Of a stretch of 64,000 bases of DNA, positions 2,803 through 64,000 are shown piece by piece. Source of the stretch: Xenococcaceae cyanobacterium MO_167.B27 (lineage in GTDB: Bacteria; Cyanobacteriota; Cyanobacteriia; Cyanobacteriales; Xenococcaceae); assembly GCA_030065935.1 (NCBI GenBank), contig JASJCP010000009.1, positions 62,001-126,000 of the forward strand, written 5' to 3'. Each line of letters begins with the position of its first letter. The first letter of the stretch is position 1. Under the pieces are notes generated by a model. It was not told the origin of the DNA and did no database searches. It saw nothing but the letters and a program-made list of their open reading frames with translations. The position numbers and the translations under genes were made by a program.

Positions 2803-5658
2803 CTATAACCAATTTCCGACTAACACATAAGGAGCCCAGTAATAAGGGTGAGGTGGAAGATTTTGAGTAGCTTCAAATCGGGGATTATCATTAAGAAAAT
2901 CGATCAGTGAAAGTTGAGCGGATTGGAGTGCATTTACTTTTTTGTTATCGGGTTTTTTTAATTCTTGATAGAATTTATCCATTAAACTAGCCGTAAATTC
3001 ATCTCCCACTGGCCATAAACTAGCGATGGTACTGCGAGTTCCCGAACGTACTGCTACTCCAGCCAAACCTAAAATAGCTTGTTCATCACCTGTCGCCGTA
3101 TTACAAGCACTTAACACGAGAAGTTCAGGAATATTAGTTGGTTCAACAGCTAGTAATTCACTCAACTCATCAATATTGATAGTTTCTCCATCACCTGTAA
3201 TAATAAAGGTCTTGTTTGGATTAGAACTAAATAAACCATGAGTTGCTAAATGAACTACATCATATGATTGCTTTTTAAGTTCACTTTTAAGTCTTGTTAC
3301 CGTAAATTCTTCATTGAGAAGCTTTTGACAATTGGGACAATCTGCTTCAATTTGTTTTAATTCTTCTGGAACCTTATTTAGTGCGGGGAAAATTTCTCCT
3401 TCTACTTGAATTTGTTGACTCACTCCAGCAGCCAGAATACTTAAGGATTTTGTATCTAATTGTTGAGGATTTATCGATTCCAATTGGATACTGGGAACTA
3501 ACGCCACACTATAGTTTTCAATCAGATATTGCTGACCATTGTATAGTGCAGCCATAGGAACTCTTTGTAAGCGATCATTGAGAACAAAAACCAGAGTTTG
3601 GATTTGCTTGGAGTTTAATTCTGATTCCAAAGGTTGAATTAGCCAATCATATAATTGTGTCAAAATCGACAACAACTTTTGAGTATTATCTTTTACTTCC
3701 GTGGGGTTCAGAGGAATAGTTCTGAAAATGTTAATCGCTGAATCATTTAAGCTCTCATTATATAAATTGTCATAGAGTCGATCTAAAGTTAAATTAAATT
3801 CTGCTTCAGTTACAGGAATTGTGATTTGTTGTAGAGGCTGTTTGGGTAAAGACAGCAATAACTCTAATCTATCGGGAAAGATAATCGGATAAATTACGGC
3901 TGCTTGACTATCAAGATCTTCAATTTGTACTGTAACCTCTGTTTCTTCTAAACAAGAATCTTGGAAAAAATTATCTAATTCTGCTATTTGTAGAGATTCA
4001 ATAACCCTTCGCGCTAGCTCCAGACGGTTTTTTTGCAGTGGTGTTTTAGATTGGCGTTGAGTAGTTTGAGGATTTAAAACTACTAGAGATTCTAATTCTT
4101 GTTCCGAAAGATCAGTTTTTAACAGCAAATCCGCTAGAGATTTATAGACAGGTTTGATCTGTTGGCGAAAATCAAATTGTAAATCTTGGTTATTTTCGTT
4201 TAAATCAGTGCGAAGGGATTGCAAAGTATTGAAAGCAGCCATGTATGATGAGATCGCACCTTTCACATCCCCTTGTTCTTTGAGTAAGTTTCCTAATTGA
4301 GATTGCCACAAATAGCTAATTTCCAAAGCATCATTAGCTAAGAGCAGAGCTTGTTGAGTTGATTGGGTTGCTTCACTTAGTAAGGTGTTACCTCTAGAAT
4401 TTTGTTGCGCTACAGGTTCTAATTGTTGCCATTGTTGGTAATATAGTTGACCCAAGTAGCCGAGAGCATAAGATTCTGCTTTTCTATCCTGTAGTGTCTT
4501 TGCTTCTTGAACAGCAGTTTTTAAGATTGGTTCGACATTACTAAGTTGTAGTAGGGTAAGTAAATTGTGAGCATAGTTAATATTTGCTGATACTGTTGTG
4601 GGATTTTGAGGTAAATTGTTAATATTTGACTCTATTTTTGGATTTAGGCGAGAAATATCTGTATTTATTTCTGTATCTAGAAGCTCTAAAAACCCTTTTG
4701 CTCTTTGAGTCAGCCGAATATCATTAGCTCTTGACCAAGAAGCAATCCGTAGATTAGCTTGTTCTTCCCACCATTGTCTAATATCTAATAACAAGCTTAA
4801 GTGATTGAGTTGTGCTTGAACTTTAGTAATAGGTTGAGTATAGGATAAAGTTTCTACTAACTTATAAGATTCAATAGCAGAGATATCAGGTTCTAAAGCT
4901 TTTGATATAGATTGAGAGGCGATAATTTCAGTAATTTGCTCATAATTCCAGCGATTTCGGGTTTGGATACCTAAAGCTCGTTCTGTATTGCCCAAACTTA
5001 ATCTAGTAGAAGGTTCTTCTCGTGAATTCAATACTTTTGATAAGCTGATTGTCAAAGCTTTTTGAGACTCTTCTAATTTCCCCTGTCGCCTCAAAACATT
5101 TCCTAGACTGCGAAATCCTATAGCTTGATTAAGAGAGAGAGCATTAGGATTTTCTGAAAACTGACTTAGTACAAATTCAACCTGTTCGGAGTTACAATCT
5201 GGCTGGTCAACGGAAAAAGCTTGCAGTAAAGTATTACAAGCTCTAGGATAAGAACCTAAATTCTGCCAAGCTTGAGCCTGATTAATCAGACTTTTAAACA
5301 ATCCTTCTTGATTCCCTATATTTTCATAAGCTTCTGCTGTTTGTTGCCAAAGACTTATTGCATCCCCAAATTGTCCTGCATTGTAGCGTTTTTGACCTTC
5401 TTTTGCGATCGCTAAAATATCAGACTCATTTTCTATCTGAGTTTGAGCTAACAATATTTTACTCTGATGTTGTTCCAAGTTGGTTGCTGAAAGAAACAAC
5501 TCGTTATGGGACAAAGCCGGAACGCAAAATGTCACAGTAAATCCCAACAAACTACCAATAATTAATCTTAATAGGTTGCGATATGGAGAATTAGTAATTC
5601 CCTTTAAAAAGGATTGAATTTGTACTCCAGTTGAAAATATACGCCGTTTTCTTGCCAT
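2803..5658 (-). CDS. TPR-CHAT caspase-like protease, apparently exported
   Basis: A 951-residue protein with a C-terminal CHAT domain (about 640-951), a caspase-like cysteine peptidase fold. The expected dyad is visible: His807 in HLATHG and Cys852 in LSACNT. The middle (about 80-510) is helical with TPR-like repeats starting at KEGQKRYNAGQFGDAI. Residues 28-50 are a hydrophobic stretch after a basic N-terminus (LIIGSLLGFTVTFCVPALS), so export or membrane anchoring is likely. The gene begins 55 bp inside the end of the TpsB gene, in another frame, so the two are translationally linked. Its position after TpsA and TpsB suggests that it processes or regulates the secreted exoprotein; that role is inferred. 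The substrate is unknown. Confidence 0.9.
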   Translation of the reverse strand: MARKRRIFSTGVQIQSFLKGITNSPYRNLLRLIIGSLLGFTVTFCVPALSHNELFLSATNLEQHQSKILLAQTQIENESDILAIAKEGQKRYNAGQFGDAISLWQQTAEAYENIGNQEGLFKSLINQAQAWQNLGSYPRACNTLLQAFSVDQPDCNSEQVEFVLSQFSENPNALSLNQAIGFRSLGNVLRRQGKLEESQKALTISLSKVLNSREEPSTRLSLGNTERALGIQTRNRWNYEQITEIIASQSISKALEPDISAIESYKLVETLSYTQPITKVQAQLNHLSLLLDIRQWWEEQANLRIASWSRANDIRLTQRAKGFLELLDTEINTDISRLNPKIESNINNLPQNPTTVSANINYAHNLLTLLQLSNVEPILKTAVQEAKTLQDRKAESYALGYLGQLYYQQWQQLEPVAQQNSRGNTLLSEATQSTQQALLLANDALEISYLWQSQLGNLLKEQGDVKGAISSYMAAFNTLQSLRTDLNENNQDLQFDFRQQIKPVYKSLADLLLKTDLSEQELESLVVLNPQTTQRQSKTPLQKNRLELARRVIESLQIAELDNFFQDSCLEETEVTVQIEDLDSQAAVIYPIIFPDRLELLLSLPKQPLQQITIPVTEAEFNLTLDRLYDNLYNESLNDSAINIFRTIPLNPTEVKDNTQKLLSILTQLYDWLIQPLESELNSKQIQTLVFVLNDRLQRVPMAALYNGQQYLIENYSVALVPSIQLESINPQQLDTKSLSILAAGVSQQIQVEGEIFPALNKVPEELKQIEADCPNCQKLLNEEFTVTRLKSELKKQSYDVVHLATHGLFSSNPNKTFIITGDGETINIDELSELLAVEPTNIPELLVLSACNTATGDEQAILGLAGVAVRSGTRSTIASLWPVGDEFTASLMDKFYQELKKPDNKKVNALQSAQLSLIDFLNDNPRFEATQNLPPHPYYWAPYVLVGNWL

Positions 5659-10783: not shown

Positions 10784-11252
10784 GATTTTTTTAAATAGTT
10801 ATATTCAACAGCAATGATTGGGTTTTTAGAATTTCTAATAAGCCAGAATTCTTCTCAAATTTAAGTTTTTATTGATTCTTATTGGGATCTATGGTTAATA
10901 CTACTATTAAAAAAACTTTTTTAAAATTAAGAACACAAAAGTTTTCACTGTTAATAAGATGAATAAATATTAAAAATTAAGAATAAAATGCAATAAAATT
11001 AACAAAATTTAGCAAATTCAGAAATTGTCAAAATGTGTTTTATATGATACAGGAGTAATATTATATAAACCAACTAAAAATTAAAATCGAATCTCAAAAC
11101 ATAAAATCTTTTAATGAGCTGCATATTAAAAGCAGCCCAAACGTATTAAACGAATAAAACCTTCTTCTGTTGTAATGTAATGGGAATAACAGAATATTGC
11201 TAGAGTTTTTTGAAACCCTTAGACGTATATAAATTATACAAGGATGAATTAT
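10784..11252. other. Intergenic region between tpsA and the COP23 gene (divergent)
   Basis: This very A+T-rich spacer separates two divergently transcribed genes and so must hold both promoters. No RNA gene, mobile element or clear operator was recognised. A run of T and A tracts lies at 10900-10990. Confidence 0.5.
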
Positions 11253-11807
11253 ATGAATAACTGGCAAAATAAAACTCTCAAACTATTAAGTATTTCCGCA
11301 TTTCCTCTGCTAGCTACAACTGTATTGACTACACCTGCCAAAGCTAGTAGTATTGATGTTGCTTGCAAGGCAGAGGGAAGTACTCCAACAATTGTTGCTA
11401 GCGTAACAGAAGAAGGTACTGCTAAAGAGGCTACTATTCTTCAGTTTCTACCTGAATATTTTTCTCCTGACGATGCAACCAATCAATGTCAGACTACAGC
11501 TAGTAAATTACACGAACTTTATAACACCGATAGCGTTAGCTACTTAGCAAGTGATACCCTAAGTGATGGACAGTCTGTAGTTTGTGCTGTTACAAGAAGA
11601 GGAAGTGGTTGCGATAGTTATAGTTCCGAGGTTTTGTTCACTCTTGCTCAGGGAACAGATCCTAGCTTGGCTCTATATGATATGCTCGACAATAGCATTA
11701 AACAAACTCATCCTCGTCCAGATTCTAGAACAGTAAGTAGAATATATACTGATATTACTCCTTCTGTTTGGAATTTGACTGCTGGTCGTAAATGGTGGCC
11801 ATTCTAA
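11253..11807 (+). CDS. COP23-domain secreted protein
   Basis: A small exported protein of the COP23 (circadian oscillating protein 23) family found in cyanobacteria. The signal peptide is clear (LLSISAFPLLATTVLTTPAKA). The mature part has the family pattern of Cys and VVCAVTRRGSGC. The second ATG is chosen as start because AAGG at 11240-11243 lies 9 nt before it; an ATG at 11244 directly abuts that sequence and would add three residues (MNY). COP23 proteins are membrane-associated and rhythmically expressed in some species; their molecular function is unknown. Confidence 0.85.
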   Translation: MNNWQNKTLKLLSISAFPLLATTVLTTPAKASSIDVACKAEGSTPTIVASVTEEGTAKEATILQFLPEYFSPDDATNQCQTTASKLHELYNTDSVSYLASDTLSDGQSVVCAVTRRGSGCDSYSSEVLFTLAQGTDPSLALYDMLDNSIKQTHPRPDSRTVSRIYTDITPSVWNLTAGRKWWPF

Positions 11808-18193: not shown

Positions 18194-18641
18194 TTAGCAG
18201 AAGTAGTATAAATCATTCCGCTATAGCATAGATATAGGGTTCGCCCGATATCATGCAGTCAGTACAAAATAAAATTTGTCAACTATTGGGATTGCCAAAT
18301 TTGCCACGGCGATCGTTAAAGCTTTCTCTATGGGTACGCCATGTGACTTTATATTACAAACTTAAGTATTAATGTAAGACGCTATTTGGTACATTTGATA
18401 TAGTAAATTAGGCTATCACTCGAAGCCAGTTTTTTAACATCCAACATAGATCTATTGGTAGTAAAACCCATTATGATGCTCAATAAAAAACTTGATATAA
18501 AGTTTTTATATAAATCTGTATTTTGATTGACATAATAAAAGCGCAGGTTTCCTGGTGCTGATATTTGGTGATTACTCTTGAGGCATTATTTGTTAATGTA
18601 AAGAACGCCGTGCTTAAAACACCTATTTGTCTATTGGGAAT
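18194..18641. other. Intergenic region upstream of aspS
   Basis: No coding region or RNA gene was recognised. It should contain the aspS promoter. The stretch 18540-18640 is less A+T-rich than the rest and could be a transcribed leader, but no known leader structure was identified. Confidence 0.4.
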
Positions 18642-55484: not shown

Positions 55485-56669
55485 CTAGGCAATAGCCCCC
55501 GACAGACCGCCATTACAGGGCTGTTTCACCACGGACGCACCGACCGCAGTTAAACCTCTATTAAGTACAACTTCGGCAGCAGCTATATCTCTGTCCTGTT
55601 CGTATCCGCACTCAGAACAAGAGTGTATTCTTTCACTTAACTCTTTTTTGCCTGTATGTGTTCCACAGTTAGGACATATTTGTGAAGTGAAATCTTTATT
55701 TACCTTTGCGAAATATGTATCCGTTCTTGAGCATACATATTCTAATATCTCAAAGAATTGACCTAATCCCATATCAAGAGATTGTTTGCAGAACATACCT
55801 TTACTCCAAGAAACAAAGTTAATGTCTTCTACAAATATCATTCCTACTCCGCCACTCAATTGATAGGCAAGCTTGAAATGATAGTCCTTTCTTCTATTAG
55901 CTACTGCTTCATGTAATAGGGCTATTCTTCTCTGTAATTTGTTCCATTTTTCTGAACCAATGCGTTTCTTTTTAAGCTTTCTTTGTAGTAATTCAATCTT
56001 ACGCAGTGCCTTGTCTAAGAACCTTGGTCTTTGGATTACCAAACTATCAGAAGTAGATAACATACTAGAAATACCTACATCAATTCCCACTGCATGACCG
56101 TGAGGTAATGGTGAAGGTATATCAACATCAAGCTCAATCATTACATTAGCATAGTAACCAGATGCTTTCTTAATGATTTGAACTTGTTTTATCAAGAAAC
56201 CATCGGGAATATCTCTAGATTTTCTTAACTTAACATTTTTAAGTAGAGGCATCTTGAGATAATTACCATTAATCTCAAACTTATTACTTAGAAGATTAAA
56301 AGATTTCATCTTCTTTTTGTAGCGTGGGAATCCCATTCCTTTACGAGCCATATCATTAAATGCTCTATCCAACTTTCGTAATGTTTGTTGCATAGCTTGA
56401 GCATTACCAGATTTCAAGTAAGGGTTAGTTTTCTTAGCCTGGGTAAGTTCAGCAGATTGAATATGATAATTAGGGTATTCAAATGGTTCGACAACATATT
56501 CAGAGATTAGAGAACACTTATTAATATCACACTTACGGCTGTTATACCAAAGTTTTCTTTGGTATAGAGCATGATTCCACACAGACTTACAAACGACAAG
56601 ATTATGGTCAATTATTTCTATCTGCTTCTTGCTTGGTTGTAGTTTGTAGCTGTAAGTGAGATTAAGCAT
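55485..56669 (-). CDS. tnpB: RNA-guided endonuclease TnpB (OrfB family)
   Basis: A 394-residue RuvC-type nuclease. Catalytic residues are all present: Asp197 in GIDVGISS, Glu281 in VEDINFVSW and Asp361 in DRDIAAAEV. The zinc ribbon is CPNCG...CSECG. The N-terminus YSYKLQPSKKQIEIID is typical of OrfB. The ATG at MLNLTYSYKL is used as start; an in-frame ATG 27 bases upstream is less likely. It should cut DNA next to its transposon-adjacent motif guided by an RNA from the element's right end. It looks intact. Confidence 0.93.
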   Translation of the reverse strand: MLNLTYSYKLQPSKKQIEIIDHNLVVCKSVWNHALYQRKLWYNSRKCDINKCSLISEYVVEPFEYPNYHIQSAELTQAKKTNPYLKSGNAQAMQQTLRKLDRAFNDMARKGMGFPRYKKKMKSFNLLSNKFEINGNYLKMPLLKNVKLRKSRDIPDGFLIKQVQIIKKASGYYANVMIELDVDIPSPLPHGHAVGIDVGISSMLSTSDSLVIQRPRFLDKALRKIELLQRKLKKKRIGSEKWNKLQRRIALLHEAVANRRKDYHFKLAYQLSGGVGMIFVEDINFVSWSKGMFCKQSLDMGLGQFFEILEYVCSRTDTYFAKVNKDFTSQICPNCGTHTGKKELSERIHSCSECGYEQDRDIAAAEVVLNRGLTAVGASVVKQPCNGGLSGAIA

Positions 56670-56801
56670 TACGACCCCTAATTCCTCTCTTATCACTTAT
56701 TCTACTACATATTTTACAAAAAAATATGTTAATTGTAAAAAAAAATTGACATCCCTCACGCTCCAAAAATAATCTTTGCCCGCGATTCATGAGGGGCAGC
56801 T

Positions 56802-57072: not shown

Positions 57073-58959
57073 ATGTGTGGAATAGTGGGGTACATAGGTA
57101 CGCAAGCAGCAACCGAAATTTTAATCTCTGGTTTAGAAAGATTGGAATATCGGGGTTACGACTCAGCAGGAGTCGCGACAGTATTAGAAGGAAAGCTAGA
57201 GTGCGTTAAAGCCAAAGGAAAACTATACAACCTTAGAGAAAAACTCGAACATAAGATTAATAATGCCCAAATAGGTATTGGACACACTCGCTGGGCGACT
57301 CATGGTAAACCAGAAGAACATAACGCTCATCCTCACCTAGATTCTGATAGTAAAGTTGCAGTAGTGCAGAATGGCATTATTGAAAACTATCGGGAATTAA
57401 GAGAAGAATTAAAAAGTAAAGGCATTGAATTTAGTACCGAAACCGACACAGAAGTAATACCCCATTTAATATCCCAATATTTAACTGATTCTAATCTCTC
57501 CCTACTAGACGCAGTACAAAAAACTATTTCTCGTTTAGAAGGAGGATTTGCAATCGCAGTTATAAGTGCAGATCATCCCTATGAACTAATAGTAGCTCGT
57601 CAACAAGCCCCCATTACCCTGGGTTTTGGACAAGGAGAATTTTTCTGTGCTTCCGATGTTACCGCCCTCTTGCCCCATACCCATGCTGTTTTAACCCTAG
57701 AAAATAGTGAAATAGCAAGGCTTACTCCTTTAGGAGTCGAAATATATACTTTTGCTGGAGAAAGAGTAAGTAGATTTCCTCGTACTCTGGATTGGAATCC
57801 TGGTCAAGTAGAAAAACAGGGTTTCCGTCACTATATGCTAAAAGAAATTTATGAACAACCAGGAGTAGTAAGGACAAGTCTCGAAACCTATCTTAATCCT
57901 AATTGGCACGCAGACGAAAATCCCGACTTTAGTCCTGTGAATCTCGGTTTATCTCCCCAACTATATGAAAACATAGACTATATCCAGATATTAGCTTGCG
58001 GTACAAGTTGGCACGCTGGTTTAATCGGGAAATATCTTTTAGAACAACTGGCTAATATTCCCACCACAATAGACTATGCTTCCGAATACCGCTACACCCC
58101 CAAACCCCTTATTCCCAATACCCTAACTATTGGTGTTACCCAGTCAGGAGAAACCGCCGATACTATCGCTGCGTTGGAGATGGAAAAAGGACGAAGGGAA
58201 AAGTTAGATTCCAAATTCCAAGTCAAACTCTTAGCTATTACTAACCGTGCTGAAAGTACTATAGCGCAACTATGTGGACATATTATTAATACCCAAGCAG
58301 GAATAGAAATTGGTGTTGCTGCGACAAAAACCTTTATCGCCCAAGTTATGGGCTTTTACTATCTGGCATTAGACTTAGCTTATCGCCGTAAAACCCTATC
58401 TAATGAACGCATTGCTGAAATTATTGAAGGATTGCGCCATATACCAGAGCAAATCGAGAAAACTCTGGAAACTCAAGAAAAGGCGATCGAAGAATTAGGC
58501 CACGAATTCACCCAAGAAACCGAAGACTTCATCTTTATTGGTAGAGGTATCAACTTCCCCATCGCCCTCGAAGGTGCATTAAAACTCAAAGAAATCTCTT
58601 ACATCCATGCAGAAGCCTATCCCGCAGGAGAAATGAAACATGGTCCTATTGCACTTTTAGATCATAAAGTACCAGTAGTAGCTGTGGCAATGCCTGGAAG
58701 CGTTTATGAAAAGGTAATTTCCAACGCTCAAGAAGCCAAAGCTAGGGATGCTAGGTTAATTGGGGTCACATCTGCAATGAATGCTCAAGAAGCAGGAACT
58801 ACTTTTGACGATGTGTTAACTGTACCTGAAGTAGAAGAGTTATTATCCCCTATTTTAGCGGTGATTCCTTTGCAACTATTGTCTTATCACATTGCAGCGA
58901 TTAAAGGGTTAGATGTAGATCAACCTCGTAACCTCGCAAAATCAGTAACGGTTGAATAA
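57073..58959 (+). CDS. glmS: Glutamine--fructose-6-phosphate aminotransferase
   Basis: Makes glucosamine-6-phosphate from fructose-6-phosphate and glutamine for peptidoglycan precursors; 628 residues. The N-terminal glutaminase begins with the nucleophile Cys2 (MCGIVGYIG) and has GYDSAG and GHTRWATHG. Two SIS domains follow (ACGTSWHAGL, VTQSGETADT, IFIGRG, EAYPAGEMKHGPIAL) and it ends DQPRNLAKSVTVE, the conserved C-terminus whose DNA is the TnsD recognition site in Tn7. The gene is intact; the transposon lies just downstream. A heptamer array takes the place of a Shine-Dalgarno sequence. Confidence 0.98.
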   Translation: MCGIVGYIGTQAATEILISGLERLEYRGYDSAGVATVLEGKLECVKAKGKLYNLREKLEHKINNAQIGIGHTRWATHGKPEEHNAHPHLDSDSKVAVVQNGIIENYRELREELKSKGIEFSTETDTEVIPHLISQYLTDSNLSLLDAVQKTISRLEGGFAIAVISADHPYELIVARQQAPITLGFGQGEFFCASDVTALLPHTHAVLTLENSEIARLTPLGVEIYTFAGERVSRFPRTLDWNPGQVEKQGFRHYMLKEIYEQPGVVRTSLETYLNPNWHADENPDFSPVNLGLSPQLYENIDYIQILACGTSWHAGLIGKYLLEQLANIPTTIDYASEYRYTPKPLIPNTLTIGVTQSGETADTIAALEMEKGRREKLDSKFQVKLLAITNRAESTIAQLCGHIINTQAGIEIGVAATKTFIAQVMGFYYLALDLAYRRKTLSNERIAEIIEGLRHIPEQIEKTLETQEKAIEELGHEFTQETEDFIFIGRGINFPIALEGALKLKEISYIHAEAYPAGEMKHGPIALLDHKVPVVAVAMPGSVYEKVISNAQEAKARDARLIGVTSAMNAQEAGTTFDDVLTVPEVEELLSPILAVIPLQLLSYHIAAIKGLDVDQPRNLAKSVTVE

Positions 58960-58978: not shown

Positions 58979-58983
58979 ACTTT
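58979..58983. repeat. Presumed 5-bp target-site duplication (ACTTT) at attTn7
   Basis: Tn7-family insertion duplicates 5 bp. The five bases before the TGT terminus are ACTTT. The other copy, beyond the far end, is outside the window and cannot be checked. Confidence 0.5.
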
Positions 58984-58993
58984 TGTAGAATGA

Positions 58994-59062
58994 CAATAAA
59001 GTTGGTAACTTTGCAATAAAGTTGGTAACTTTAGTAAAAATAACAATAAAGTTGGTAACTTT
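58994..59062 (+). repeat. Three TnsB-binding sites of the transposon end
   Basis: CAATAAAGTTGGTAACTTT occurs three times without mismatch, at 58994-59012, 59014-59032 and 59044-59062 (start-to-start spacings 20 and 30 bp). The spacing and the CAATAAAGT core match TnsB sites of Tn7 ends. Confidence 0.92.
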
Positions 59063-59107
59063 TGTCGTATTATTGATAGAAGTAATACTGTATTGTTAAG
59101 TTTGCTA

Positions 59108-59326
59108 ATGGCTAGAAGTAAATATGATTGGACTCAAGTTAAGTTTGAGCGATACATCAAAGAAGGTCGAGGAAAAGGAAGTGGGAAGAATTATAAACCT
59201 TGGATAACAATTCAAGATTTTCCCTCAAAAGGTAGAGTATCGAGATCGCCTGGCTGGAAAAGCGACCAGCTTCGCTGTTGCGCTCCGCGCACCGCATTCA
59301 CCATTTTATGTCAGACTGGGAATTAA
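59108..59326 (+). pseudogene. tnsA: tnsA 5' fragment (frameshifted)
   Basis: Starts MARSKYDWTQVKFERYIKEG and continues YKPWITIQDFPSKGRVSRSPGWK, as in Tn7-like TnsA N-termini. After Trp-Lys (59260) it enters a GC-rich segment (AGCGACCAGCTTCGCTGTTG...) and runs to a stop in the wrong frame. The correct continuation (HRIHHFMSDWE) resumes at 59290 in the -1 frame. About 26 of the 29 intervening bases look inserted. The two frames overlap openly from 59236 to 59326. Confidence 0.75.
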
Positions 59327-59949
59327 GATTTTTCTATTTATTAGAATGGTCGGATGCAGTTAAAGACATCAGAGAACAATACCCATTGCTAGATTTAGAT
59401 TTAGCAATGGGTATTGCTGATGAAACGGGTATTGAGTATCCCAAAGATAAAAAAAGTGGAACTCCTTATGTATTAACGACTGATTTTATGTTGACAGTCA
59501 AACAAGGTAAGAAATTAGTTCAAATTGCTCGTACAGTCAAATTAGCTAAAGATTTAGACAAGAAAAGAGTTTTAGAAAAATTACAATTAGAGAAACACTA
59601 CTGGAATAGACAAAATATTGACTGGGCAATAGTTACAGAACAAGAAATCTCCAAAATTTTGGCAGACAACATCAAATGGGTTCATCCTGCTTATAAGTGG
59701 GAATTAACAGATGAAACTAACAATGGAAATTGTTACTATTTAAGCAATCTTTTAAAAAATAGATTAATCAATAAAAAAAACAAGATTTCTACAATAACAC
59801 AAGCATTAGATCGAGAGATGGGGATTAGCTCTGGGACATCTCTATCATTGTTTAAACATTTAGTTGCCAGAAAAGAAATTATCGTCGATATGCTTGGAGA
59901 AAAATTATCGAGTAGCTCTTCATCAAACATTATAAAAAAAGTTATTTAA
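59278..59949 (+). CDS. tnsA: TnsA endonuclease, main part (catalytic core and C-terminal domain)
   Basis: TnsA cuts the 5' ends of the transposon, giving cut-and-paste movement with TnsB. This frame (TTG at 59278, or ATG at 59308) holds the PD-(D/E)xK-type residues: Glu in MSDWELRFF, Asp in VLTTDFMLTV and Lys in QIARTVKLAKDL. The C-terminal winged-helix domain (about 110-223) includes KKNKISTITQALDREMG. It lacks the first about 50 residues, now in another frame. If restarted translation or frameshifting occurs, it may still work. It ends 20 nt before tnsB. Confidence 0.75.
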   Translation: MRSAHRIHHFMSDWELRFFYLLEWSDAVKDIREQYPLLDLDLAMGIADETGIEYPKDKKSGTPYVLTTDFMLTVKQGKKLVQIARTVKLAKDLDKKRVLEKLQLEKHYWNRQNIDWAIVTEQEISKILADNIKWVHPAYKWELTDETNNGNCYYLSNLLKNRLINKKNKISTITQALDREMGISSGTSLSLFKHLVARKEIIVDMLGEKLSSSSSSNIIKKVI

Positions 59950-59969
59950 TTGATGGTAAAAAAAAGATA

Positions 59970-62195
59970 ATGGCTAATCAACTATATATTAATGATCTAA
60001 TAGAGTGGGTGGAAGAATCTGGAGAAAGCACTGTCGAAAGAATTGTCTGGATAGATGAAAATTACATTCTTGCTTTTACATTTGATATAAACAAAAATCA
60101 AGGTGTGCCATATCCCAAAAAAATTAGCGAAATTGAAGAAGCTATTGATGAAGGATATGCTTTAAAACTAAAATCAGATCCTTGGTTAATAATAGTTACA
60201 GAAGAGCATCTGTCTGAAAAGGAAATAGAAATTAGAGACAGGACTTGGAACATAATTAGCAATCTAGTTCAACAAGAACCTGAAATATATGATCGCAAAC
60301 TACGAGGCTCTCTTGTAAATGATGCAATTGCTCGCTCTCAAGGCAAGGTTGCTAAAAAAACTATCTATGGTTATTTAAGAAAATATTGGCAGAGAGGAAA
60401 AACTAAAAATTCTTTGCTTCCTGATTATTCAAATTCAGGTGGAAAAGGCAAAACAAGAAAATACAGTAACAATATTAAACGAGGGCGACCTAGAAAATAT
60501 AAAAAAATTGCAGAAATAGGTAAAGGAGTCAATATAACTGAAGAAGATCGTAGGATTTTCAGGATTGCTATTTCTAAATTTTATAACAATAGAAAAGGGA
60601 ACTTTTTGACTACTGCTTATAAATTAATGCTCAAAGAATACTATACAGAAGAAATTATCTTCGATGATAAAGGAGTGAAAAAATCAACTTTAATACCTCC
60701 AGATAAGCAACCAACAATTAGACAGTTTCGATATTGGTATGACAAAGAGCATAGAGACATCAAAAAAACAGTTTCTTCAAGAAGAGGTAGTAGAGCTTTT
60801 GCATTAGAGCATAGAGCTATTTTAGGTAATTCTCAACAAGAAACGATTGGTCCTGGTTCTCGCTATCAAATTGATGCCACTATTGCTGATGTCTATTTAG
60901 TGTCCAAATATAATCGTAATTGGATTATTGGCAGACCCGTAGTGTATGTAGTGATAGATGTTTTCAGTCGCATGATCACAGGAGTTTATGTTGGTTTAGA
61001 AGGACCTTCTTGGTTGGGAATGATGATGGCTTTAGTTAATGCAGCTACTGATAAAGTCAAGTTTTGTGCTGAGTATGGAATTGAGATTACGGAAGAAGAA
61101 TGGTTAGCCCATCATATTCCTGATGCTATTTTAGGAGATCGCGGAGAATTAGCAGGAAAAAATGTGGAAACTTCTATTAATAATCTTGGTATTCGCATTG
61201 AAAATGCAGCACCTTATCGAGCAGACTGGAAAGGTTTAGTAGAACGACATTTTCGCATTATCCATGACAAAGTTAAACCTTTTCTTCCTGGTTATGTAGA
61301 TGTGGATTTTACTCAAAGAGGAGGGAAAGACTATCGTTTAGATAGCAAATTAGATTTAGATGAATTTACTAAAATTATTATCCATTTAATTCTTCAGCAT
61401 AATAATCATCATTATTTGCCAAACTATGACCGCGAAGAGATGATGATAACTGATGATGTTCAACCCATACCAAGAGAATTATGGCAGTGGGGAATTGCTA
61501 ATCGTTCGGGAAGGTTAAAAACTTTTCCTGAAGATATCGTTAAGCTTAATTTAATGCCAACAGATAGAGCAACTATTACAGCTAAAGGAATTAAATTCAA
61601 AAAACTTTACTACACCTCTGAAAAAGCCAGAAAAGAACAATGGTTTGAAAGAGCTAGAAGCAGATCTCTTTCTAAAGACGAAAAATATATCAATATATCT
61701 TACGACCCCAGAAAACCAGATATTATATACTTTCGTTCTTCAGATGGAAGAGATTTTGAAAAATGCTTTCTGATTGATTATGAAAATAAATATATGGGCA
61801 AAAATCTTTGCGATATTGAATATTTATTTGAGTATGAAAAACAACAGCAGCAAGTAAATAAGGGGCAACAAATACAAAAAGAAGTGGATTTGATGTCAGA
61901 GATTGAAGCCATAGTTACAGAAGCAGAAATCAAAACTAATGCGGTTCAAGATAAAACTCTTAGTAACAATCAAAGAGTTAAAGGCATTAGAGATAATCGA
62001 GGTTTTGAAAAAGAAAAGCGCAGAGAAGAAGAAGCTTTTGAACTAAGTCAAGATGAAACACTAGAGGGAGTAGAAGAAGTTAAATCACAAACTGCATCTA
62101 GCAAAACTAAGTCTAAAAAAACTAAATCTCTTAAGCGTAAAAATTTAGAACTACTTAAGAAAATGCGTCTAGAAAGATCAATTAAAGAGGAATAG
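59970..62195 (+). CDS. tnsB: Transposase TnsB
   Basis: DDE transposase that binds the end repeats and joins 3' ends to target DNA, 741 residues (Tn7 TnsB is about 700). The catalytic triad reads Asp302 in YQIDATIADV, Asp390 in ILGDRGELAG and Glu425 in KGLVERHF, with exact D-35-E spacing. The N-terminal part (about 60-290) holds helix-turn-helix DNA-binding regions. A Lys-rich charged tail (about 640-741) probably contacts TnsC. The gene begins shortly after tnsA and ends 5 nt before tnsC, so it is in an operon. Confidence 0.95.
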   Translation: MANQLYINDLIEWVEESGESTVERIVWIDENYILAFTFDINKNQGVPYPKKISEIEEAIDEGYALKLKSDPWLIIVTEEHLSEKEIEIRDRTWNIISNLVQQEPEIYDRKLRGSLVNDAIARSQGKVAKKTIYGYLRKYWQRGKTKNSLLPDYSNSGGKGKTRKYSNNIKRGRPRKYKKIAEIGKGVNITEEDRRIFRIAISKFYNNRKGNFLTTAYKLMLKEYYTEEIIFDDKGVKKSTLIPPDKQPTIRQFRYWYDKEHRDIKKTVSSRRGSRAFALEHRAILGNSQQETIGPGSRYQIDATIADVYLVSKYNRNWIIGRPVVYVVIDVFSRMITGVYVGLEGPSWLGMMMALVNAATDKVKFCAEYGIEITEEEWLAHHIPDAILGDRGELAGKNVETSINNLGIRIENAAPYRADWKGLVERHFRIIHDKVKPFLPGYVDVDFTQRGGKDYRLDSKLDLDEFTKIIIHLILQHNNHHYLPNYDREEMMITDDVQPIPRELWQWGIANRSGRLKTFPEDIVKLNLMPTDRATITAKGIKFKKLYYTSEKARKEQWFERARSRSLSKDEKYINISYDPRKPDIIYFRSSDGRDFEKCFLIDYENKYMGKNLCDIEYLFEYEKQQQQVNKGQQIQKEVDLMSEIEAIVTEAEIKTNAVQDKTLSNNQRVKGIRDNRGFEKEKRREEEAFELSQDETLEGVEEVKSQTASSKTKSKKTKSLKRKNLELLKKMRLERSIKEE

Positions 62196-62200
62196 CTGAT

Positions 62201-63889
62201 ATGAATAAAGTCCCAATTCCTAATGGTGTCGAAGCTACTATTGCCATATATCGCGACCAAAAACTACGTGAATATAATGCTAATCCCATGATTCAAGCAT
62301 TACCTCTGATTATGTCAGATCAAGAGTTCCTACAATCTGCAACAATAATGCCTGATTTTTCTCCAGAAGAACGGATGTTTGAGCCTCATTTGAGATTTCA
62401 CTGTGTAGAAAGATTATCTAGATATTTCGACCCTATAGACAAAACTTTAGAGTTACAAAGAATTGTTAGTGTTTTACTGAGGCAGGGGTACATAGCCCGT
62501 AATATATTGCAACCTCAATATGCTCGTCGTGCCAATCAAATCTATGAAGCAATCAAAACTGGAAGTGGCAAAACTATCGAAAATTATGTTGATGTTCCCA
62601 CCTCGGCTTCTGGCTTTACTTTAATTGGTCCTTCTGGAATGGGAAAAACTACCAATCTCAAAAACATTCTCAGTCTTTATCCTCAAGTAATCGCTCATCC
62701 CCAACACAATGCTTATCAGTTAGTTTGGATTAAAGTTGATTGTCCTCATGCGGGTTCTTTGAAAGGTTTGTGTATTGATATTTTTAAAGAAGTAGATCGC
62801 TTGCTTGGTACGAACTACTTTAAAAAATTCGGCTCAACTCGCAATTCAGAAGACTATATGCTGGCTCAGGTAGCTCAACTCGCCCATACTCATCATTTGG
62901 GAATGTTAGTCATAGATGAGATGCAAAATTTAGTCAATGCCAGAAGAACTAAAGACGATCTGCTCAATTTTTTGGTCAAAATGGACAATATCATTGGAGT
63001 ACCTGTAATTAGAGTCGGGACAAATGAAGCTTACCCCATTCTCCAAGGCAATTTTAGGAATGCCAGAAGGGGAACAGGAGAAGGAGGAGTTCTCTGGGAT
63101 CGCATGAAGCAAGAAGATGAAGATGAATGGAGTGAGTGGCAATTTTTTGTAGAAGGAATGTGGAAGTATCAATGGACAACAGAATATACTGTTTTGACGG
63201 ATGAGATATATGAAGCTCTTTACTTTGAAACTCAAGGTATTATTGATCTAGTAGTCAAACTATTTAAAATGGTTCAGTGGCGTGCGATCGCTCAAGGAGG
63301 AGACGAAATTGTCACCGTCGAACTCATACATGAGGTGGCGAAAGAAGGATTATATCTAGTCAAACCAATGCTCGATGCGATTAGGTCGGGTGATACTGAA
63401 TGGATGAATAAATACAAAGATATTGCTCCTTTAAGTACAGTTGAATATCAAACTAAATACGCCTCAAAATTAGAATCAAAAGATTTGAAAGAGATTCCGC
63501 GTTTAGCTCGTAAACAGCAAGAGCAAAAGTCACCAATCTTAAGCACTGTGATTCTTCAACTAATACAAGAATTAGATGTTGAACCACTTTTTGCTAAACA
63601 ATGTGCAGAGAAAGTGTTTAATCCCAAGGATAAAAACCATAATATTTCTTCTTTAGTTAAACAAGCTTATGCTCTAGTATTACAAGGTGGAGGAGCTACC
63701 ACTACGACTAATATTAAAGAAACTCAATCTAAAAAGACCAATAAAGTTAAATTAGAACCTCAATATCAAGAAAACGACATGAGGCTAATTGTTGCTGAAG
63801 CTCAAAAAAAAGGGATTTCGGCTCATGATGCTTTAAAACAAGCAGGATTTATTAGAAACCCGATTGATGATTTCATTAACGTAGGCTAA
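62201..63889 (+). CDS. tnsC: AAA+ ATPase TnsC
   Basis: The regulator that links target selection to the transposase, 562 residues, similar in length to Tn7 TnsC and twice that of the small TnsC of type V-K elements. Walker A is GPSGMGKTT (143-151), Walker B is LVIDEMQN (Asp239, Glu240). RVGTNEAYPILQGNFRNARR is the sensor region. The C-terminal part (about 400-562) probably contacts TnsA/TnsB. The stop is followed by the tniQ start after 3 nt. Confidence 0.95.
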   Translation: MNKVPIPNGVEATIAIYRDQKLREYNANPMIQALPLIMSDQEFLQSATIMPDFSPEERMFEPHLRFHCVERLSRYFDPIDKTLELQRIVSVLLRQGYIARNILQPQYARRANQIYEAIKTGSGKTIENYVDVPTSASGFTLIGPSGMGKTTNLKNILSLYPQVIAHPQHNAYQLVWIKVDCPHAGSLKGLCIDIFKEVDRLLGTNYFKKFGSTRNSEDYMLAQVAQLAHTHHLGMLVIDEMQNLVNARRTKDDLLNFLVKMDNIIGVPVIRVGTNEAYPILQGNFRNARRGTGEGGVLWDRMKQEDEDEWSEWQFFVEGMWKYQWTTEYTVLTDEIYEALYFETQGIIDLVVKLFKMVQWRAIAQGGDEIVTVELIHEVAKEGLYLVKPMLDAIRSGDTEWMNKYKDIAPLSTVEYQTKYASKLESKDLKEIPRLARKQQEQKSPILSTVILQLIQELDVEPLFAKQCAEKVFNPKDKNHNISSLVKQAYALVLQGGGATTTTNIKETQSKKTNKVKLEPQYQENDMRLIVAEAQKKGISAHDALKQAGFIRNPIDDFINVG

Positions 63890-63892
63890 CTA

Positions 63893-64000
63893 ATGCTTGG
63901 TTATTTTCCTACTCCCTATCCTGACGAGCTACTTTATAGCGTAGTTGCCAGATATCATATCCGCAGTGGTAATAAAAGCTTTCTGCAAACTCATCAAGAA
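63893..64000 (+). CDS. TniQ/TnsD family target-selection protein (5' end only)
   Basis: 36 codons to the window edge: LGYFPTPYPDELLYSVVARY, then HIRSGNKSFLQTH. FPxPYPDELLYS.xARYH is the TniQ N-terminal motif. Given the insertion at attTn7, this is probably TnsD, which binds the end of glmS. A Cascade-linked TniQ would have the same N-terminus. The remainder is not visible. Confidence 0.85.
   Translation, partial: MLGYFPTPYPDELLYSVVARYHIRSGNKSFLQTHQE

Follow-up and report, generated by a model that had tools for sequence, protein, structure and literature searches.

A probable type I-B1 CRISPR-associated Tn7-like transposon, likely resident and partly disabled, downstream of glmS in a Xenococcaceae cyanobacterium

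Results

A Tn7-type end and tns genes follow glmS

We analysed a 64,000-nucleotide stretch (the window) of the 7.02-Mb draft genome of Xenococcaceae cyanobacterium MO_167.B27, positions 62,001 to 126,000 of contig JASJCP010000009.1 (C64), which runs just 4.7 kb beyond the end of the window. Downstream of glmS the window enters a Tn7-like transposon, which continues on C64 into a CRISPR (clustered regularly interspaced short palindromic repeats)-Cas module and probably ends on a second contig, C262. Taken as a whole, it is very probably a type I-B1 CRISPR-associated transposon (CAST) with a Tn7R-type end at glmS, likely a resident and partly disabled copy whose far side was rearranged after insertion. 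Window positions are given as plain numbers and those on C64, C262 and C31 of the same genome with the contig's name; G numbers denote genomes of relatives and L numbers loci.

The element opens with TGT at 58984, 24 nt past the glmS stop (58959), and in this end CAATAAAGTTGGTAACTTT occurs three times, identical across 19 bp. The 18-mer AATAAAGTTGGTAACTTT starts at 58995, 59015 and 59045; its exact sequence was found at four places in the genome, these three and C262:62666. With two mismatches allowed, it matched 10 places, against 2 for a reversed-pattern control. The sequence and the genome-wide pattern search thus agree with an earlier note on this DNA, made from the window alone, which had described three sites identical over 19 bp at this distance from glmS. 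All tns genes are directed away from glmS.

Both tnsB and tnsC are uninterrupted open reading frames (ORFs). Alignments with solved Tn7 structures cover residues 24-690 of 741 in TnsB and 14-409 of 562 in TnsC, and the D, D and E stretches of TnsB and the P-loop of TnsC, which we take to hold the catalytic residues, fall within the aligned parts; the earlier note had called the two genes intact. Pairwise dN/dS, calculated with our own script, was 0.16 and 0.13 for the 3' part of tnsA, 0.09 for tnsB, 0.07 for tnsC (432 codons), 0.13 for tniQ, 0.16 for tnsD and 0.09-0.11 for cas6, cas7 and cas8. At the level of sequence, these values show past purifying selection on the genes of the element, averaged over both lineages.

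A repeat at a HIP1 octamer throws tnsA out of frame

The tnsA gene lies in two frames, which the earlier note did not mention. Relative to G013, G012 and G018 it holds a net insert of 26 bp, at an octamer that reads GCGATCGC (HIP1) in G013 and G012. Allowing up to two mismatches, we found the core of this insert at 43 places in the genome and its reversed control at none. An excerpt of PMC4390886 describes a small repeat, SDR5, that inserts inside HIP1, and on this precedent the insertion of a repeat as in tnsA is a known type of event. The 3' part of tnsA retains the E, D and K positions that are catalytic in Tn7. The residue aligned with Q130 of Tn7 TnsA is T, and T is present in 24 of the 25 cyanobacterial loci with letters there. 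TnsA of the relative G013 matches Tn7 TnsA.

In the congener G001 (L091, about 4028-4080), a different GC-rich repeat, of 50 bp, occupies the same HIP1 octamer of tnsA. The two inserts shift the frame to the same phase, on which account programmed frameshifting of tnsA is conceivable. The TnsB proteins of both elements are about 78% identical. The G001 element is more decayed: residue 442 of tnsB joins residue 310 of tnsC, and no cas genes come after tniQ. TnsA was matched at E 1e-20 in 25 of 291 genomes of the order, among which two tnsA pieces meeting at the HIP1 site were found only in MO_167.B27 and G001. A stop lies inside the TnsA match in G247 and G045, and the match is only partial in G247, G255, G270 and G136.

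A type I-B CRISPR-Cas module probably spans two contigs

Past the window, tniQ is followed on C64 by cas6, cas8, cas7 and cas5; because this module lies beyond 64000, it had been missed by the earlier note. The 310-aa TniQ combines a TniQ with a partial TnsD domain (PF15978) and is 38% identical to TnsD residues 20-327. The profiles of Cas6, Cas8, Cas7 and Cas5 are of the type I-B kind (NCBI name MYXAN), and Cas8 matches the type I-B Cas8 of solved entries (8fcj and others; E 1.4e-81).

The cas5 frame on C64 is cut off at a TA, where it meets one end of a multi-copy insertion sequence. An end of the same kind makes up the final 176 bases of C262, and on reversed C262 the remaining cas5 codons follow directly after TA, in frame. 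When the halves were joined, no residue was missing by eye in comparison with the whole cas5 of L097, a CAST-type locus of Xenococcaceae cyanobacterium MO_188.B29. We infer that C64 and reversed C262 form one element, joined across the multi-copy insertion sequence. The T of the TA target precedes all 24 other ends of this insertion sequence that were examined. Its family is uncertain: IS630 was suggested by eye, but the 35-aa transposase tail reached only E 0.14 with the IS630 model and matched no Pfam family; an ORF at L039, a locus with a related end, is of the ISL3 type. The cas5 of MO_167.B27 also holds, in frame, a repeat of the same GC-rich family as the tnsA insert and is 8 residues longer than that of L097.

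After cas5 lies an array (about C262:92542-92649) in which a single 36-nt spacer separates two repeats of about 36 nt, the second diverging at its 3' end; in L097 the corresponding array has five repeats of similar sequence. Neither cas1 nor cas2 was found among the genes from tniQ to cas5 or 18 Pfam-scanned cargo ORFs, a scan that left aside some cargo ORFs and small ORFs between cas5 and tnsD. A second cas5 in the genome, of the MYXAN type and unbroken, lies at L047 (C31:1889-2434), where cas7- and cas8-like frames adjoin by eye; this C31 locus is a possible source of spacers for the CAST.

TnsD, cargo and the far end

Beyond the array, C262 encodes a TnsD of 646 aa (PF15978, E 1.8e-128; Tn7 TnsD 8glu_X, E 4e-38), which is tied to the C64 half through the split cas5. 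It is the sole TnsD in the genome, the only other match at E 1e-5 being the TniQ on C64. About 27 kb of cargo follow, in which the 18 scanned ORFs encode GTPase-like, vWA, HEPN-vWA, FHA, PP2C, Ser/Thr kinase and beta-lactamase-fold proteins. PADLOC, applied to 10 cargo proteins, matched three, to kinase and phosphatase models only, and we therefore claim no defence system. The cargo also includes low-complexity ORFs with short tandem repeats (QDSGFRI.., EYRTQNS..; L015:5330-5737 and 10952-11377).

The far end, TGTAGAATAACAATAAAG, lies at C262:62533, with three sites at 62544, 62611 and 62666. The element thus measures about 40 kb, about 9.6 kb on C64 and 30.5 kb on C262, excluding the insertion sequence. 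In Tn7, close-packed sites near tnsA (Tn7R) are paired with three spaced sites opposite (Tn7L); here too the sites are close at the tnsA side and widely spaced, three in number, at the far side. The earlier note had predicted a TGT...ACA far end with matching sites and a duplication of ACTTT: the end and its sites were found, the duplication was not, the far flank being GTAGA. Together with the encoded TnsD and the glmS sites of relatives that lack such an end, this far end supports a Tn7-like element at attTn7.

Table 1. Features in and around the part of the transposon that lies in the window
Feature	Position	Strand	Evidence or remarks
IS605-type OrfB / TnpB-like gene	55485-56696	-	403 aa, Cas12f1-like TNB domain; just upstream of glmS
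glmS (host gene; 3' end is the presumed TnsD attachment site)	57073-58959	+	628-aa ORF, GATase and SIS domains
ACTTT, five bases outside the end	58979-58983		sequence; far flank is GTAGA
tnsA-proximal end of Tn7R type: TGTAGAATGAC with three TnsB-type sites close together	58984-59062		sequence, genome-wide pattern search
tnsA 5' part; frame kept until the repeat insert and lost from there to a stop	59108-59326	+	
Frameshifting dispersed GC-rich repeat at the HIP1 octamer of tnsA (net +26 bp)	59262-59295		alignment with relatives
tnsA 3' part, TnsA_N and TnsA_C domains, in-frame ATG at 59308	59278-59949	+	Pfam PF08722, PF08721
tnsB, DDE transposase, uninterrupted, 741 aa	59970-62195	+	phmmer to Tn7 TnsB 7pik, E 5e-124
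tnsC, AAA ATPase, uninterrupted, 562 aa	62201-63889	+	phmmer to Tn7 TnsC 8glu, E 1.5e-84; Pfam AAA_22, TniB
tniQ, first 108 nt inside the window	63893-64000	+	310 aa in all; ends with stop at C64:126825

The glmS site in relatives

We surveyed glmS in 40 genomes, that of MO_167.B27 and those of 39 relatives. A glmS match was obtained in 38, of which 8 were left out and 30 kept as loci; G034, lacking the 3' end, was then removed, leaving 29 loci. Of the 29, 8 had two or more TnsB-type sites in the 200 nt that follow glmS, namely that of MO_167.B27 and those of 7 of 22 relatives of the same family; none of the 6 other relatives had them, nor did any of the reversed windows. These counts hinge on the TnsB-site pattern chosen. 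As similar ends are present in 7 of 22 same-family relatives and absent from others, the glmS site is reused. Sites without such an end, a comparison with which the earlier note had proposed, exist among the relatives. A single site match occurred in G004 and at the first glmS copy of G007, where it is probably due to chance; the second glmS copy in G007 bears an element.

The same gene order follows glmS in the cyanobacteria G170 and G094, and in G110 with cas8 and cas7 interrupted; a Cas8 scan of the named genomes yielded one relative. The glmS elements of G087 and G184 gave no cas matches in their first 40 kb. No far ends of the G087, G170, G184 and G094 elements were found in 69-120 kb searched for three-site clusters with up to three mismatches. 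Where both flanks could be read, they were TTAAT and TTATT in G019, ACCTT and AAAGT in G037, and AACAC versus CACCA or CCATT in G110, the last base of the end being ambiguous there. An ACA followed by ACCTT at 18568 in G037, matching the glmS-side ACCTT, was rejected as the far end, as no site cluster adjoins it; the site cluster ends about 1.4 kb beyond, with AAAGT.

Other features of these loci are recorded here. At G006 (L083:1213-1790), an end whose sites are of another type (AATTCGGT..AACAATT) and the start of tnsA lie near glmS+25, and beyond them is a far end with AAAGTT..AACT-type sites; the locus is apparently two merged elements. The G019 element (L080:1299-1744) is a remnant of 446 bp resembling a miniature inverted-repeat transposable element, composed of the near end, the start of tnsA and the far end. 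Both ends lie within 20 kb in G037 (L169-L170) and G110 (L171-L172), and the only TnsD-like match in 40 kb there is a short TniQ. Just outside the end, the terminal 9-11 bases are repeated in G110 (L171-L172) and G001 (L091), with TGTGATAACAC twice in the former and TGTAGAATC then TGTAGAATA in the latter, as though left over from an earlier end. A cas8 remnant lies about 3 kb after glmS in G003 (L094:7236-7352).

The far junction

The far end sits inside an antitoxin gene, whose homologue in G008 has 29 more residues in front. A search of the assembly for the missing front returned four weak matches only, the best (E 0.002) to a paralogue. The toxin frame after the truncated antitoxin contains a stop, as judged against G008. 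That the antitoxin gene is cut and its front gone suggests deletion or recombination in addition to age. Farther out lie an exosortase gene (Pfam) and, by eye, adhE, ftsZ and recA. Synteny of this flank with glmS was considered and rejected, since glmS and the exosortase genes are over 1 Mb apart in two complete relatives.

A remnant of cas5 (L014:9909-10091, minus strand, corresponding to C262:61908-62090) is present about 0.44 kb beyond the far end. It scored 50.8 bits with the cas5 of L097, 46.6 with that of the element itself and 36.6 with that on C31. An older CAST may have lain near the far flank, and we regard this remnant and the cas8 remnant of G003 as traces of older CASTs.

Discussion

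Between Tn7-like ends, tniQ, cas6, cas8, cas7, cas5, an array and TnsD together point to a type I-B1 CAST of the AvCAST kind. TnsA, TnsB and TnsC homologues stand in order (tnsA being frameshifted in this copy), and the ends carry putative TnsB sites, as in Tn7-like elements. Separate tnsA and tnsB, a short TniQ beside type I-B cas genes, a TnsD of the glmS kind and an array are features of type I-B1, whereas the separate genes and the glmS site differ from the TnsA-TnsB fusion and tRNA-gene site of types I-B2 and I-D. Excerpts of PMC11406308 describe I-B1 CASTs as close relatives of Tn7 in cyanobacteria, with a glmS TnsD and a TniQ apparently derived from a truncated TnsD, and assign TnsA-TnsB fusions and tRNA sites to I-B2 and I-D CASTs; according to an excerpt of PMC10293859, the TnsDs of Tn7 and CAST I-B home to glmS. 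By homology, TnsD would bind the 3' end of glmS and recruit TnsC and TnsB, giving insertion about 24 nt downstream (homing), and a complex of TniQ with Cas6, Cas8, Cas7 and Cas5 and the short array could direct RNA-guided insertion elsewhere.

Several observations weigh against reading C64 and C262 as one resident I-B1 copy. The contigs were joined by inference over a multi-copy insertion sequence, not by sequence. No 5-bp duplication is present, ACTTT lying at the glmS side and GTAGA at the far side, and the distance from glmS to exosortase genes such as that of the far flank is 1.1 Mb in G004 and 2.2 Mb in G015. For the spacer, no target was found among plasmids, phage records, the genome itself or viral contigs: plasmids gave none, five phage records matched in part (E 0.1 or worse), the genome at up to three mismatches returned only the spacer itself, and viral contigs with every sixth base left free gave nothing. 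Finally, current use of the genes cannot be read from pairwise dN/dS. Duplications are lost with age or rearrangement, and we therefore read the missing duplication as history rather than as excluding the element from the Tn7-like group.

It is hardly credible that the element is an ordinary, recently active Tn7-like transposon with TnsD as its sole means of homing. The Tn7-type end at glmS+24 and the uninterrupted tnsB and tnsC would fit, and G087 and G184 do carry glmS elements with no cas match in the 40 kb read, but here tniQ, the cas genes and then the array follow tnsC, and a TnsD-only element is contradicted because cas genes lie between both ends. Recent mobility, which the earlier note had proposed, is not upheld: ACTTT is missing at the far end, tnsA and cas5 are broken, and in comparison with G013, the nearest relative found, dS of tnsB (1.02; 516 codons) is similar to that of glmS (1.19), with 0.65 for tnsA. 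Nor do three identical sites, which that note had taken as a possible sign of recency, by themselves show recent movement. It is possible, if doubtful, that two CAST copies are involved, one represented by the C64 half at glmS and the other by the C262 half in the antitoxin gene, which recombined or are only apparently joined at the multi-copy insertion sequence. The unmatched flanks, the position of the far end in an antitoxin gene, the front of which the assembly did not yield, the insertion-sequence ends that adjoin many contig ends, and the cas5 remnant outside the far end would all agree with this. The genome, however, contains a single stretch of tnsB-tnsC, a single (split) tnsA and a single TnsD, and site clusters occur at two places in it; the parts of cas5 join in frame without loss.

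Improbable, in our view, is a replicative intrachromosomal move after the break of tnsA, accompanied by an adjacent deletion, in which the glmS end was kept, the other end took a new target and the intervening DNA disappeared. The frameshift in tnsA would allow for it, as would a far end that is exact to its terminal TGT yet joined to a front-less antitoxin gene. Against this, an exact duplication is missing from the elements of G019, G037 and G110 as well, the latter two of which have an open tnsA; as these three other glmS elements share the lack, age may blur duplications and alone may explain their absence. There is also no second copy. More improbable still is the wider proposal that loss of TnsA, through repeat insertion at HIP1 in two congeners, made a cut-and-paste CAST replicative, the unmatched flanks being the scar of an adjacent deletion. 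Both the involvement of two copies and an adjacent deletion concern the far side only and are compatible with the type I-B1 assignment.

As a type I-B1 CAST the element is ordinary in kind and its mechanism is not new; least ordinary are the unmatched flanks and the finding that, in the congener G001, a different repeat has broken tnsA at this HIP1 site too. It is one more I-B1 CAST, and both of its ends have been located. It also shows that, in one cyanobacterial family, such elements occupy glmS time and again and leave their remnants there, and offers material on the decay of CASTs and their fate once TnsA is lost.

Among known systems, the element is most readily compared with AvCAST and type I-B1, a likeness that rests on the description of the type and not on the AvCAST sequence. 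Shared are the separate tnsA, tnsB and tnsC of the Tn7 branch, a TniQ like a shortened TnsD, type I-B cas6, cas8, cas7 and cas5, TnsD, a cyanobacterial host and the glmS site; the present copy differs in its frameshifted tnsA, the insertion sequence in cas5, an array with one spacer and unmatched flanks. With Tn7 of Escherichia coli it shares homologues of TnsA, TnsB, TnsC and TnsD, the asymmetry of the ends and an insertion point downstream of glmS, with the tns genes running away from that gene, but it has a CRISPR module, and the counterpart of TnsA Q130 is T. The cas-tnsD locus L097 (JASJDI010000027.1) has the same order, with the array between cas5 and tnsD, and its Cas8, Cas7 and TnsD are about 73% identical; it differs in having five repeats and an uninterrupted cas5, and the tns genes before cas6 are not on its contig. 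The Cas8 also resembles that of type I-B2, as it matches the type I-B Cas8 of 8fcj, which we take to be PmcCAST. Type I-B2 elements, as excerpts of PMC11406308 describe them, have a TnsA-TnsB fusion and a TnsD directed to tRNA genes, whereas the present element has separate genes and sits at glmS.

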